IMG/VR virus record: IMGVR_UViG_3300029624_000038
Span: 1 to 35,267 of that record
Length of the DNA stretch: 35,267 nt
Strand: one strand, 5' to 3'
DNA from: a virus
The position numbers were made by a program, and so were the translations under genes. This document shows, one piece after another, positions 6,806-33,056 of the stretch (positions within the stretch are counted from its first letter, which is position 1; every line of letters begins with the position of its first letter). Under the pieces are notes generated by a model. The model searched no databases. It worked only from the letters and a program-made list of their open reading frames with translations, and was not told where the DNA came from.

Positions 6806-7762
6806 TTACTGATTTCCGTACAACATTTCAATCGCTTTAACTGTTTTCATTCCAACCACCCCGTCAACGATTTTTCCGTTTCCCGAATTTATATCTTTTA
6901 CACACTCATGTATAAACTTGTCATGGTTTGATGATGTGCCTTGATATCCATCATATACATTTGGTCGATCAATTTCATCGACCATTGGCATGGGTACGCC
7001 TTCAACGTCCCAATAAAGTATTTTATTCAAGTATGGTCCACCGATTTCTACGGTTCCGCCTTGACCTATCACGGTAATTGACCCGGTTAAATTTTTGTTT
7101 TGTACCGCCGTTGACCAAACTAAATTAGTCATTACCCCGGAATCAAACATAATAACACTAATTCCAGTATCTTCAATGGTCAACCCATGATGGGCATAGT
7201 TTTCTATATGTGTTTTGCAAAACAAAATATTCCCAAACCAATTGACCAATAAATCAATGAAGTGTGAAACCTGGGTAAATAGCGGCCCCCCTTCTTTTTC
7301 TTTGTCGCCGCGCCAATCTGAAAGTGTGTAATAAGGCCACGGCCTATTCCATAACACGCGGCATTCAACAATTGAAATTGGCTTCAGCTTTTCCATTACC
7401 CGATCCAATGCCTTTACCGGCTGATTGAACCGATTTTGTTTCATAACATACAATTTGCGGCCGTTTCTTTTGGCCGCTTCAATCATATCAACACAATCGG
7501 ATGATGATAATGCCATTGGTTTTTCACATATGACGTGTTTTCCGGCGTGCAATGCCTGGATCGTTATTTCCTTATGTGTGTCGTGTGGGGTGCAAACGCA
7601 AATAATTTCACAATCGGTGTTCAATAGTTCATCTAATGAACTGCAAACGGAAAGTATATTATCTGGGTTGGTGTCAAATGTTGCAACCAGATCGTAATTT
7701 TCCTTTATGATGTGATAATGGCGCCGGCCGATGTTGCCTAATCCTACTATTCCAAATTTCAT
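6806..7762 (-). CDS. Gfo/Idh/MocA oxidoreductase, WlbA/WbpB-like sugar dehydrogenase
   Basis: 318 aa, a usual length for the family. Rossmann motif GIVGLGNIGRRH (residues 4-15), CTPHDTH, EKP at 80-82 (the conserved lysine), KQNRFNQPV at 109-116, and GGPLFTQVSHFIDLL at 158-172 with the catalytic histidine near 167. KQNRFN, the NRPWPYY..DWRG segment, EDTG and GSITVIGQGGTVEIGG match the subgroup that oxidises C3 of UDP-N-acetylglucosaminuronate (WlbA/WbpB) on the way to 2,3-diacetamido sugars of LPS. Subgroup assignment is from memory of the motifs. Such genes are rare in phages. With two glycosyltransferase-like genes in the head module, it suggests phage-directed sugar modification. Confidence 0.88.
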   Translation of the reverse strand: MKFGIVGLGNIGRRHYHIIKENYDLVATFDTNPDNILSVCSSLDELLNTDCEIICVCTPHDTHKEITIQALHAGKHVICEKPMALSSSDCVDMIEAAKRNGRKLYVMKQNRFNQPVKALDRVMEKLKPISIVECRVLWNRPWPYYTLSDWRGDKEKEGGPLFTQVSHFIDLLVNWFGNILFCKTHIENYAHHGLTIEDTGISVIMFDSGVMTNLVWSTAVQNKNLTGSITVIGQGGTVEIGGPYLNKILYWDVEGVPMPMVDEIDRPNVYDGYQGTSSNHDKFIHECVKDINSGNGKIVDGVVGMKTVKAIEMLYGNQ

Positions 7763-8600: not shown

Positions 8601-9617
8601 CTAAAATGGTGCCTTTTGATTCAATTCATGTGTTTGCCCGGTGAACGGATCCCGTTTATCAAACAGAAACCTATTCATTTTTTCGACAAAAAATATATCG
8701 CCAACGGATCCAGGTTTTCCAACCAAGGTCTGTTTACGCTGTTTTAGGTTGAACAGTTCGCACCATGGGGATTTTGGATCATCGTGTTTGAATGGTCGGT
8801 GAAATGAATAAAAGCCATCCATGTTATTATCCCATGAAGCGCCGCCCAACATCATATCGGGTTCAACCACTTTGTATTCGCCTTCATTTTGACCGCTTGT
8901 AATTTTCTTTTTTTCATTTTTGGGATGGGCTACAATGTTCACGGATGAATTTGTTTCGATGGCTACATCTTTTAACGCCGCAAATGTTTCATCCAAATAC
9001 AAGTCGGTACGCCCTTTTTCATCGGACCGAATATTTTTAAATGGGTCAATGAATATTCCGTCAAACGGCCGGTGATCATATGAATATTTTATTAAATCGA
9101 TCAACCCATTCCATGAACGGTTGTCAGGCTGAACTATCATAAAATGAGCTTCAAGCCATTTCATGGTTTCAATATACACGTCACGTTCCATGCGGGCCCA
9201 TCCTTTTTTTTCGTGGTGATGCTTGTATGGCGTTTGGCCCTGATAGGTGAACGCTAGTTCGTCCCATACATCATTGGCATCCACTTTGATTTTGCCATTT
9301 GGCATTCGGTGTGATCCTACATCTTCCGGGACAAACAAAACCCACTTCCACCCGGCCTTGTATGATTTCAATAATGCGATGTATTTGGTAAATGTTGATT
9401 TTCCGAAATTTGGCCACCCGGTCCAACAATTGACAAAAGTTCGTTTCCAGGATATAACGCCGTCCAATGTTTTTGCGTGGGTGGTTTCGCCTAATTGCTT
9501 CCCGTTTTCATATTCATCCAACAATGATTCCATATCCGGGCGTAATATTTGCCGCTCCATGATTGGATCCGTCGTAAACCCATCAACCAAGTCATTAACC
9601 GAATCGAAATTATTCAT
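8601..9617 (-). CDS. RecA/DnaB-fold replicative helicase-like ATPase
   Basis: 338 aa. Walker A GWPNFGKST at residues 67-75, a following LLFVPED-type strand with the catalytic acidic pair (PED, 97-99), Walker B FDGIFID at 185-191, a sensor-like NIVAHPKN around 227-233, and GGASWDNNMDGFYSFHR near 270, which is the DnaB/Twinkle pattern before the last strands. It lacks a full DnaB N-terminal domain or a primase domain, so it may need the initiator or a host primase as partner. It lies downstream of the origin-bearing initiator gene in the same operon. Confidence 0.8.
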   Translation of the reverse strand: MNNFDSVNDLVDGFTTDPIMERQILRPDMESLLDEYENGKQLGETTHAKTLDGVISWKRTFVNCWTGWPNFGKSTFTKYIALLKSYKAGWKWVLFVPEDVGSHRMPNGKIKVDANDVWDELAFTYQGQTPYKHHHEKKGWARMERDVYIETMKWLEAHFMIVQPDNRSWNGLIDLIKYSYDHRPFDGIFIDPFKNIRSDEKGRTDLYLDETFAALKDVAIETNSSVNIVAHPKNEKKKITSGQNEGEYKVVEPDMMLGGASWDNNMDGFYSFHRPFKHDDPKSPWCELFNLKQRKQTLVGKPGSVGDIFFVEKMNRFLFDKRDPFTGQTHELNQKAPF

Positions 9618-9674: not shown

Positions 9675-10154
9675 TCATGATTGTGGTTTTTTATCCATCC
9701 AGGTTTCAAACTCTTTTGATTTGATAAACCGGGCAAACTCTATTGGGTTTTCAAATTTCTTTTCTGTGATCATATCCGCTAGTTCAGCTAACAGCATTCG
9801 ATTCATGCGGTTTTCTACTATTAATTTGGCTTTAGTGTCAACATCCATTCCGTATATTTTCCACATCTGATTAATCGATGATCGAACGGTTTTAATATAC
9901 ATTCCCAATAACTTATCCAGTTCCGCAACGGCAACGGCTACATTTTGATTATTGTTTACCGTATCGATTTGCGCTTTGTTCAGTTTGTGAAATTGGTTTT
10001 GCCAATGTTTTATTTTTTGAACCATGTGGTCAATCCCAACCGCTAATTTTTGACGGCGTTCATTCATTTCGCGTTCGTAATAATCAAGCGTGCCGTTTAG
10101 GGCGTCCGCCGTTGTTACTTTTCCGCTATCAAAGTGATCGTTTTTTTTATCCAT
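9675..10154 (-). CDS. Hypothetical helical/coiled-coil protein, 159 aa
   Basis: Nearly all helical, with heptad-like stretches at residues 25-60 and 70-100 (HMVQKIKHWQNQFHKLNKAQ; VAVAVAELDKLLGMYIKTV). No catalytic motif. Position between the initiator and the helicase genes suggests a helicase loader, SSB-like partner or regulator, but the sequence gives no direct support. A 57-bp gap without features separates it from the helicase start. Confidence 0.6.
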   Translation of the reverse strand: MDKKNDHFDSGKVTTADALNGTLDYYEREMNERRQKLAVGIDHMVQKIKHWQNQFHKLNKAQIDTVNNNQNVAVAVAELDKLLGMYIKTVRSSINQMWKIYGMDVDTKAKLIVENRMNRMLLAELADMITEKKFENPIEFARFIKSKEFETWMDKKPQS

Positions 10155-10273
10155 ATTGATTTTTTGGTTTCGTCGGTTATTTCAGTTGCGACAATTTGGT
10201 GTTTGATTTTTCGTTTTTGCCCGCAGACAACTAATTCATATTTTCCTGGCTTTATTTCGTTTACAGTTACCAT
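10115..10273 (-). CDS. Small basic ORF, 52 aa
   Basis: An ATG at 10273 overlaps the initiator stop by 7 bp and opens a frame of 52 codons, starting MVTVNEIKPGKYELVVCG and ending at 10115, where it overlaps the start of the 159-aa gene by 40 bp. It fills the otherwise empty space between these genes. The content is a plausible small beta barrel (KYELVVCGQKRKI), but there is no family. The coupling pattern is the same as for other genes in this operon. Confidence 0.5.
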   Translation of the reverse strand: MVTVNEIKPGKYELVVCGQKRKIKHQIVATEITDETKKSIWIKKTITLIAEK

Positions 10274-11064
10274 GATACGCGTGGATCTATTGATTTTGAT
10301 TCTTTGGTATCAACCCCATCCCACCATTCAAAGTATTTTTCAAACTTAGTTCCCATTAAGGTTTCATAATTTAAATGCCTTTCGAACTCGGTGCCCTTCC
10401 ATTTTTTGAACATAAATCGTAAGGTGGAAATAATTTCATCCGGGGTGTGCTTGTCCCGGATCCGGGCGTTGATAAGTGAACGCCGGGAATTGGTCAATCT
10501 CAAATCGCGCGCGCGCCCATTTAACCCCCTATGCAGTTCGTTGAATACGGAATGAATTTCATCTAAATCCCTATTATTATTATTTATATTATTACTTATA
10601 TTATTATAGTCGTTCATTTTTGAACGACGTGGTCGTTCATTTTTGAACGACGTGTCGTTCATTTTTGAATGGGGTCCGGCCTCCCAAATTTCAATCCCAA
10701 CACACGAAATCGAAACATAAACACCCTGTAATTTTTTGTTATTAGGGTGCCTATCAACCAGGCCCAAACGGACTAATTTTTCCACCCGCCGGTACAAAGT
10801 TGGGGCTGATTTTATGCCGGCAATTGGTATCTGATCATTGACATAATTAAGCTTTATAAGAACAAACCGTTTATCCCCTTCATCTATTTTTTTTGATTTG
10901 TGGGTGACCGTTAAATGATAAATCAAATCTAGTAAAGCGCAATCGATTAGATCTACCTGATCAATCAATCCGGCTTCCCTAATAGCGTATTGATTTGTTT
11001 GTATGTTGTATTTCATATTATTCAATTGGTAAAAAAATGGCGACGCCCTGTAATACGCCGCCAT
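10267..11064 (-). CDS. Replication initiator (winged-helix plus phage C-terminal domain)
   Basis: 265 aa from ATG at 11064 (an ATG at 11016, MKYNIQ, is an equally good start). Residues 35-125 form a winged-helix-type DNA-binding domain (SAPTLYRRVEKLVRLGLVDRH). Residues 130-167 are a low-complexity linker (asparagine-rich). Residues 170-248 match the conserved phage C-terminal domain Phg_2220_C seen in O/DnaD-like replication proteins: LINARIRDKHTPDEII, FKKWKGTEF, LNYETLMGTKFEKY. The linker is encoded by three iterons and an AT-rich tract, as in lambda O, so the protein probably binds within its own gene and recruits the helicase encoded 0.7 kb downstream. Confidence 0.82.
   Translation of the reverse strand: MAAYYRASPFFYQLNNMKYNIQTNQYAIREAGLIDQVDLIDCALLDLIYHLTVTHKSKKIDEGDKRFVLIKLNYVNDQIPIAGIKSAPTLYRRVEKLVRLGLVDRHPNNKKLQGVYVSISCVGIEIWEAGPHSKMNDTSFKNERPRRSKMNDYNNISNNINNNNRDLDEIHSVFNELHRGLNGRARDLRLTNSRRSLINARIRDKHTPDEIISTLRFMFKKWKGTEFERHLNYETLMGTKFEKYFEWWDGVDTKESKSIDPRVSW
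10573..10608. other. AT-rich unwinding element candidate
   Basis: Thirty-five of 36 bases are A or T, directly beside the iterons and on the downstream side in the gene's reading direction, as in the lambda origin. It encodes the asparagine/isoleucine-rich linker of the initiator. Proposed site of initial strand opening. Confidence 0.6.
10609..10670. repeat. Three palindromic iterons, probable replication origin
   Basis: GTCGTTCATTTTTGAACGAC begins at 10609 and again at 10632; a third, right-arm-degenerate copy begins at 10654. Spacing is 23 and 22 bp, about two helical turns. The first two copies are perfect inverted repeats with 8-bp arms and a TTTT centre. They lie inside the initiator gene and encode a repeated KMND peptide in its linker. 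Iterons with internal symmetry inside the initiator gene followed by AT-rich DNA are the hallmark of the lambda ori. Confidence 0.8.
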
Positions 11065-18347: not shown

Positions 18348-19477
18348 TAGCTCCCGAATATTGGTTGGGTATTGAAGAAATGTATTTTGCCGTTATATAT
18401 CTGATAACCTAAAAATACATATTGATTGTTCAATAGGCTGGATATATCCGCGGTATCCTGATCACCAAACGTGGCATCCGCAGAAACCCCATCCGCTTGA
18501 AATGCTAATGTTACGGAACTTGTACCGCGTAATATGATAAAAAAACCACCCTGCCCATTATCTATATTGGTTGCGTTTAACGTCACGGTTCCGGTAGCGG
18601 TTGAGCAATCAATTATAGGGTTTTGGTATGTTTCCATATCAACGGCTTGCGTGGGGCTTGATCCGGTAACTGTAATCGGTGACTGATCAGCGGCGTATGC
18701 ACTACCTTCACGGATTACCATTTGGTAACCATCTAAATCAATATATAAATTAGCGCCTTGCGAATCAAACAATATATCATTACCGTCTGATTGAATGGTA
18801 AATGTCCCGCCGGCTGTATCCAATAGCATATTCCCGCCATTAGAATCTAATGTCATTGTTCCGCCATTAGAATCTAGTGTCATATTTCCGCCATCAGAAT
18901 CAAATAACATATTGCCACCGTTTGATTGCATGGTTATATTTCCCCCGTCATTTTCCAACACCCAATCACCGCCGCCGCCTGTATAAACTGTAAAGTTTGA
19001 TAGCGGATCGCCTGATGTTCCAAGGTTCACCGCATACGTTCCGGATGCGCCTGTGATTGTTGCGTCCTGATCCAATGCACCGGTCCAATCCAATTCACCA
19101 CCTGATTCAGTCAATCCGGAACCGGGCAAGTTTGATGATACCGTTTTCAAATCCCATTGTGAATTACCATCGTCATAATAAATAACTTGCTGGTCCTGTG
19201 ATGCCCCCGGTGACTGAAGATCCCCGGAAGATGTTAGACCAAACAAATAAACATCAACCCACGCCCTGAATTGGTCCGGGGCAATGGCTTTTGCGTTTTC
19301 AACACCTGTTTGAATTTCCAACGCCGTTGCAAAACCACCATCCGCGATATTTAAAAACGAATCTTTTATGTCCGTTGTAAACGTTCTCATATCCCCTTCA
19401 CTAATTTCACCGGTGGTGTTATCGGCAAATAGGGCGTTGAACTTAGATAAAAAGTTTGCAGCGGTTAATTGTGCCAT
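18347..19477 (-). CDS. Tail fibre protein with nonapeptide repeats
   Basis: 376 aa. Residues 1-80 are helical and probably anchor to the tail tip; around 168-250 there are eight nine-residue repeats (GGNMxxDSN type); the C-terminal part (from about 265) is beta-rich with a jelly-roll-like VTLNATNIDNGQGGFFIILRG segment. Nonapeptide repeats of this kind can form a parallel beta helix or roll. It is preceded 5 bp upstream by the large tail-tip gene and followed by the lectin-like gene. A role as a fibre holding the receptor-binding end is likely. Confidence 0.65.
   Translation of the reverse strand: MAQLTAANFLSKFNALFADNTTGEISEGDMRTFTTDIKDSFLNIADGGFATALEIQTGVENAKAIAPDQFRAWVDVYLFGLTSSGDLQSPGASQDQQVIYYDDGNSQWDLKTVSSNLPGSGLTESGGELDWTGALDQDATITGASGTYAVNLGTSGDPLSNFTVYTGGGGDWVLENDGGNITMQSNGGNMLFDSDGGNMTLDSNGGTMTLDSNGGNMLLDTAGGTFTIQSDGNDILFDSQGANLYIDLDGYQMVIREGSAYAADQSPITVTGSSPTQAVDMETYQNPIIDCSTATGTVTLNATNIDNGQGGFFIILRGTSSVTLAFQADGVSADATFGDQDTADISSLLNNQYVFLGYQIYNGKIHFFNTQPIFGS
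18731..18946. repeat. 27-bp coding repeats in fibre gene
   Basis: In-frame repeats encode GGN/T-M/F-x-L-D-S-N/D units at residues 178, 187, 196, 205, 214, 223, and more weakly 232 and 241 (nine-residue period). On DNA the CCGCCATTAGAATCTA block recurs at 27-bp spacing. Such arrays can change length by recombination and so vary fibre length. Confidence 0.75.
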
Positions 19478-32190: not shown

Positions 32191-32397
32191 TTATGACTCA
32201 ATATCATTACGAAATATTGGCGGGGGTGTGGCGTTTCTGTTTTCAATTGTCACACATGAATGATATTTACCATTCCAATAGAAAATTATCAGCTTTTTAT
32301 TTCTTATCCACCTTAATACAAACCGGGCACCAAAAAACATTGCAAACTTGAAAACAAAATGCCAAAATGTGAATTTCATTGTCAATGGTCCGGCCAT
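32191..32397 (-). CDS. Small membrane protein, 68 aa
   Basis: The ATG at 32397 sits in a TAATG junction with the rhamnosyltransferase-like gene; the longer frame starts at a TTG. Residues about 10-29 are hydrophobic and aromatic (FTFWHFVFKFAMFFGARFVL), followed by a basic patch (RWIRNKK), predicting one membrane segment. It may be a partner of the sugar-transfer gene next to it. No family. Confidence 0.5.
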   Translation of the reverse strand: MAGPLTMKFTFWHFVFKFAMFFGARFVLRWIRNKKLIIFYWNGKYHSCVTIENRNATPPPIFRNDIES

Positions 32398-33056
32398 TAT
32401 ATCCAAAGTTTTGATCGGTCAATTACTTTATATCCGTTGTGTTGCTTGCTTACCATATTATTTTTGTGAATCACCTGAATCCATCTATATCGCGGGTCCT
32501 GGATCACTAAATCAACGTAATTATGCATTTCGTTATGCTTAGTGCTGTATGGATGTTCTAAATACCCCCGCATAAACGATCGTTTTACACACAAAGTAAG
32601 GAACATTGAACACTTTTTGGTAGAATAATAATCAAATTCAACCGCTTGATTTGTTGGTTTGTCATACCTAAACCCATGAAAATCGATGATAAATGACTTG
32701 ATTTTCGGGTTTTTTTCAACGGTTTCATTGAAAATATCATGAATGTTTTGCGTAAAATCCGGATGAATAGAATCATCTGTATCAAATCGGGTCATTAAAA
32801 CCCAATCAGTTTTTCCGGCCAACGGTAGAATGTTCCAATATCTTTGATGGGCCATGTTGTAGGTACTTCCACCGTAAGCAATTGAATCGTGGATCTTTTC
32901 AAAGTGGCCTGTTTTAAATAGCCACGTGAAATTCCCATTTAATTGATCATTCATTGCCGGGACGCTAAATTCCCGAAAAACCGCCATTCGTTTATTCAAA
33001 TCATTTGGATCTGAATGATGAAACCGGGTGCAAATAAAGTGCTTGAAATTATTCAT
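32397..33056 (-). CDS. Putative rhamnosyltransferase-like glycosyltransferase
   Basis: 219 aa. MTRFDTDDSIHPDF at about residues 88-101 is the TRxDxDDxxHxDF motif characteristic of the putative rhamnosyl transferase family (PF11316), with the DxDD metal/nucleotide-sugar site. The start FICTRFHHSDPNDLNKRMAVF and the later FRYDKPTNQAVEFDYY segment fit the same family. No membrane segment. It stands between TerL (8-bp overlap) and portal, an unusual place, so it is transcribed with the head genes. Sugar donor and acceptor cannot be told from sequence. Confidence 0.78.
   Translation of the reverse strand: MNNFKHFICTRFHHSDPNDLNKRMAVFREFSVPAMNDQLNGNFTWLFKTGHFEKIHDSIAYGGSTYNMAHQRYWNILPLAGKTDWVLMTRFDTDDSIHPDFTQNIHDIFNETVEKNPKIKSFIIDFHGFRYDKPTNQAVEFDYYSTKKCSMFLTLCVKRSFMRGYLEHPYSTKHNEMHNYVDLVIQDPRYRWIQVIHKNNMVSKQHNGYKVIDRSKLWI

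Follow-up and report, generated by a model that had tools for sequence, protein, structure and literature searches.

Placement of a replication origin inside the gene of its own initiator is a known layout. In phage lambda, the position of ori within initiator gene O is established (PMC7466680), and in the RepA_N plasmid pSK41 the origin also lies in the initiator gene, with its repeats in a dispensable linker (PMC5703833). The chimeric plasmid pPR9 represents a natural swap of the N-terminal domain together with the origin (PMC5703833), and for phage 80alpha an origin inside the initiator gene has been inferred (PMC5499656). The stretch of viral DNA analysed here in its entirety (35,267 nt, hereafter the window) adds a well-supported further member: judging from its sequence, the segment 10572-10673 is very probably a phage replication origin that lies within the gene of its initiator (Table 1).

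The iterons are 20 bp long and spaced by 23 and 22 bp. Two are perfect copies of GTCGTTCATTTTTGAACGAC, with 8 of 8 arm positions pairing around a 4-nt centre; the degenerate third copy has 3 mismatches, retains one arm and the core, and pairs at 5 arm positions. Thus, the three iterons that the sequence-only reading had described as 22-23 bp apart, two of them perfect palindromes with 8-bp arms, are present as stated. No further copies with up to 3 mismatches were found elsewhere in the 35,267-nt window (0 expected from shuffles). The accompanying claim of a 36-bp tract with one non-A/T base beside the iterons also held, and the tract is unique in the window: the only 36-mers with a single G/C start at 10572 and 10573. 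Duplex stability in the contig is lowest, by a wide margin, for the 40-mer at 10571 (−33.9 kcal/mol; the next reaches −38.2 and the mean is −51.4). GC skew across the window shows no turn at the site and is uninformative. Searches of IMG/VR with the exact iteron gave no matches, and those with the initiator alone or the helicase alone gave no relatives; because no close phage relative was found, the exact iteron is known from one genome only.

Table 1. Features of the candidate origin and of the surrounding replication genes (window coordinates).
Feature	Position	Strand	Basis
Predicted initiator gene, 249 aa, ATG giving MKYNIQTNQ	10267..11016	-	PF09524, phrog_428, phrog_18020; conserved start
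N-terminal domain, residues 1-103, predicted winged helix, putatively iteron-binding	10708..11016	-	AF2 pLDDT 78
Iteron 1 in reading direction (degenerate, 17/20)	10654..10673	-	
Iteron 2 (perfect palindrome GTCGTTCAAAAATGAACGAC)	10632..10651	-	
Iteron 3 (perfect palindrome), adjoins AT tract	10609..10628	-	
AT tract, 37 bp, putative unwinding element, encodes YNNISNNINNNN	10572..10608	.	Composition unique in window; least stable 40-mer
Phg_2220_C-type C-terminal domain, residues 175-229 matched, putative recruiter of helicase machinery	10330..10494	-	PF09524
Small gene between initiator and helicase	9675..10154	-	No usable match
RecA-fold helicase-type gene, downstream of initiator, same direction	8601..9617	-	phrog_5482; primase/helicase families

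Family matches predict that the gene holding these elements encodes a replication initiator. Its product matches PF09524 (Phg_2220_C; 2.3e-9, 37.6 bits against a gathering cut-off of 27), phrog_428 (replication initiation; 1.5e-15) and phrog_18020 (O-like; 8.5e-5), and reaches 32 bits with TIGR02220, under the cut-off of 66.65. An upstream ATG at 11064 is likewise open, and the start at 11016 is favoured because it yields the motif MKY.I..NQ, which is conserved from residue 1 in relatives. The AF2 model of the N-terminal domain (pLDDT 78) has the element order H-H-EE-H-H-E, and its matches in the PDB are mostly winged-helix proteins, none of them under an E value of 0.001. Among the matches listed, the top TM score, 0.63 at an E value of 0.53 for this model of pLDDT 78, was to 4pql, which we take to be a RepA-type initiator domain. 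The full-length fold was poor (pLDDT 53) and its PDB matches are meaningless. Residues 96-149, forming the linker, have pLDDT values below 50, which fits disorder, the alignment being too shallow to prove it. The iterons and the AT tract fall in the part of the gene encoding this linker. The order proposed earlier, from winged-helix domain through iterons and AT tract to Phg_2220_C domain, is borne out by the profile matches and the N-terminal domain model.

The description of the locus as lambda-like stands as an analogy of layout, but does not extend to the N-terminal domain, which has no sequence match to lambda O. Both loci carry in-gene iterons read in several frames (20-24 bp apart in lambda) and followed by an AT tract, and in both the iterons are flanked by a DNA-binding domain on the N-terminal side and a partner-binding one on the C-terminal side, these binding roles being putative in the window. 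However, the window protein yielded no Pfam match to Phage_rep_O (PF04492) and an hhalign probability of 0.1% against lambda O. Furthermore, unlike lambda, the window has a C-terminal domain of the Phg_2220_C type, three iterons rather than four, a different iteron sequence, and a downstream helicase-type gene in place of a P-type loader. As models, RepA_N plasmid and phage origins are at least as close as lambda ori. In RepA_N initiators such as that of pSK41, a winged-helix N-terminal domain binds repeats in the rep gene and the origin encodes the linker, an arrangement similar to that in the window, where binding is presumed; RepA_N origins also have semi-palindromic iterons converging on an A-tract, akin to those seen here. 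In streptococcal phages 315.1 and Javan275, RepA_N is joined to Phg_2220_C, the type of C-terminal domain also present in the window. In contrast to RepA_N proteins, the window protein has no match to PF06970, either in the Pfam scan or in an own-genome search, the control genomes of the latter being silent too. The locus would thus resemble lambda ori/O and RepA_N plasmid origins in its mode of action, and it is a proven member of neither, because its N-terminal domain matches neither family by sequence.

In the proposed mechanism, the three 20-bp iterons would be occupied by the winged-helix domain, most likely in the form of dimers separated by about two helical turns, and the bound complex would strain and open the adjacent A/T tract. 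The Phg_2220_C domain would then bring in the replicative helicase, which could be the RecA-fold protein encoded two genes downstream or that of the host.

Readings in which the sites serve only as operators, act as RNA hairpins or arose by chance are weak. The palindromes could be operators regulating transcription of the replication operon, with the initiator or a repressor acting on them and replication starting elsewhere. A perfect palindrome occupied by a winged-helix dimer makes a typical operator, and the PDB matches of the N-terminal domain are mostly transcription regulators; nevertheless, we judge this unlikely, as the sites lie about 340 bp inside the gene, away from its start, and directly before an AT tract; many relatives share this layout, which is the proven origin in lambda (PMC7466680). 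Autoregulation by the initiator through the same palindromes may occur.

Three other near-tandem repeats with spacings of 18-27 bp occur in the window, at 18.83, 1.03 and 16.06 kb. The last is a single 14/16 pair, at chance level, and the first is an in-frame 27-bp coding repeat, encoding Gly/Asn-rich units in a structural-looking ORF (18818-18913). That at 1.03 kb is a 14/16 pair within an array of 48-bp direct repeats (1048-1377; 30% GC) in a 760-bp AT-rich intergenic region (780-1540). This array is a minor rival or second site. Six of its sites lie one mismatch from the 12-bp iteron core TTCAAAAATGAA, and the chance of at least 2 such sites at the local composition is about 0.01-0.02 (post hoc), as might be expected if the initiator also bound the array and the array were the true origin or an additional one. 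We consider this improbable, since the six are copies of just two sites, the GTCG/CGAC arms are absent, the best match to the full iteron has 6 mismatches (p 0.19), and the array has neither an initiator gene nor relatives in the phage collection. The whole region 780-1540 likewise had no matches in that collection, and the exact 48-bp unit had none in IMG/VR. Two exact direct repeats, GTTCTATATGCTACTGTTATAT (518-539 and 1777-1798) and TTTAGCCAAACCG (820-832 and 1510-1522), lie symmetrically on either side of the array and of two small minus-strand ORFs, in the manner of a gene cassette.

A role of the repeats as RNA hairpins in the initiator mRNA, in attenuation or translation control, is still less probable. 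Compared with shuffles, the region does fold better, both in the window (z −4.7) and in relatives; however, palindromic DNA sites fold in this way regardless of their role, and we rejected this reading because the proven DNA iterons of lambda reach z −7.2 in the same test and because the fold varies among relatives while the spacing of the repeats stays.

The iterons are under DNA-level selection. In reading order, the three copies encode H-SKMND, SFKNER and R-SKMND, that is, one DNA sequence in two frames. Their summed matches are 54 of 60, compared with a mean of 37.5 and a maximum of 52 among synonymous recodings of the linker, none of which (0/50,000) attained the observed repeat identity; the repeat is therefore not imposed by the protein. 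An ordinary repeat at the protein level, or a low-complexity linker arisen by chance, as the Asn-rich linkers of such initiators, variable among relatives, might suggest, retains next to no probability, being refuted by these recodings and by the different reading frames of the copies. The annotated lambda O iterons, run through the same script, gave spacings of 20/24/23, frames 0,2,2,1 and an AT tract directly after. Frames also alternate between repeats in Campylobacter PC11, TCUEAP2 and streptococcal 315.1, and in the near-identical contigs L022 and L023 all three frames are used to read a single DNA word.

We gathered 27 initiators by protein similarity, with one search pattern taking in the Asn-rich linker; the set includes the window itself and near-identical members (L022/L023). 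An initial score combining repeats and palindromes beat the synonymous null in the window, SP120 and yong2, with PC11 borderline, and overlooked relatives in which centres are odd or copies are skipped; it was replaced by a simpler off-frame repeat test. Of the 27 initiator genes, 9 contained near-tandem repeats whose spacing is not divisible by three, against 1 of 131 control ORFs (Fisher 3e-7, indicative only, given the make-up of the set and the adoption of the test after the first score had proved unsuitable). The strict script found no repeat in 15 of the 27, several of which have looser repeats by eye.

The sequence-only reading had called for co-varying iterons in related phages, and these were found: in many relatives, among them phages of Elizabethkingia, Campylobacter and streptococci as well as uncultured phages, the gene retains internal repeats about 21-24 bp apart while the sequences differ, and in one swap the iterons move with the N-terminal domain. 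Elizabethkingia phage TCUEAP2, the contigs L020 and L024, and Campylobacter PC11 RepO share the N-terminal domain family of the window, with in-gene iterons and an AT tract, but differ from it in iteron sequence and C-terminal domain. The iteron TAAACGAAAGTTTA occurs in TCUEAP2, L020 and L024, whose N-terminal domains are 73-81% identical, and that of PC11 is CTAGGTAAA...TTTACC. L021 carries about five in-frame copies of a 21-bp unit, and units of 21 bp are also repeated in L025. Initiators combining HTH_36 with Phg_2220_C (Staphylococcus SP120, L022/L023) have the C-terminal domain of the window, in-gene repeats at 22-24 bp and, as in the window, an AT tract encoding an Asn-rich linker, whereas their N-terminal domain belongs to another winged-helix family with weak profile similarity only. 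The iteron centre of L022 (CAAAAATG) is similar to the window iteron core.

A natural swap separates L020 from Bacteroides phage C1_85S2P. The DNA flanks are about 95.6% identical on both sides and the C-terminal domains are identical (106/106), but the N-terminal domains are just 24% identical and the linker repeats differ. The exchanged segment (L020:2610-3507) is clean and contains the N-terminal domain, the iterons and the AT tract. The swap resembles that in the chimeric plasmid pPR9 (PMC5703833), and these two phages provide a clean natural test of origin specificity. In L025, which stems from a gammaproteobacterial symbiont, the N-terminal domain family of the window is fused to a lambda-O-type C-terminus (39% over 77 aa). 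When 299 genomes of the phylum of G001 were surveyed, there were only 4 matches, among them the L025 genome itself. Comparison of sequences establishes that the repeats are conserved as DNA within the gene, that the iterons precede the AT tract and that, in relatives, the iterons travel with the N-terminal domain. In relatives, the MKY.I..NQ domain family overlaps the unannotated PHROG 11527. There is about an even chance that this domain is a module for origin recognition, a role in which it had not been described before, and that it moves between phages with the iterons and AT tract as one cassette and joins at least 3 unrelated C-terminal domains (Phg_2220_C, phrog_6969-like and lambda O-like), so that origin specificity would be exchanged across host phyla separately from helicase recruitment. 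What is new, to a modest degree, is the N-terminal domain family and its free combination with several C-terminal domains. The locus provides a precise candidate origin for a phage that has no close relative in culture and points to a role for an unnamed domain family, and repeats read in different frames offer a simple signature for origins in unannotated phage initiator genes.

The helicase-type gene beside the initiator, also noted earlier, was confirmed by its matches to phrog_5482 and primase/helicase families, which a gene near the initiator of Flavobacterium phage V165 matches as well. No P/DnaC-type loader was recognised among the genes scanned. Matches of the helicase and the N-terminal domain suggest that the host probably belongs to the Bacteroidota; the terminase matches listed at the top are to Pseudomonadota phages, at about 34%. 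A rhamnosyltransferase-like gene (32397-33056) adjoins the terminase gene. The contig end (35223-35267) carries AGATCGGAAGAGCGTCGTGTAGGG..., presumably Illumina TruSeq adapter sequence, reflecting either an artefact of assembly or reads that ran past a physical end. The phage also carries an unusual metabolic passenger, a gene for a Gfo/Idh/MocA-type oxidoreductase (6806-7762).
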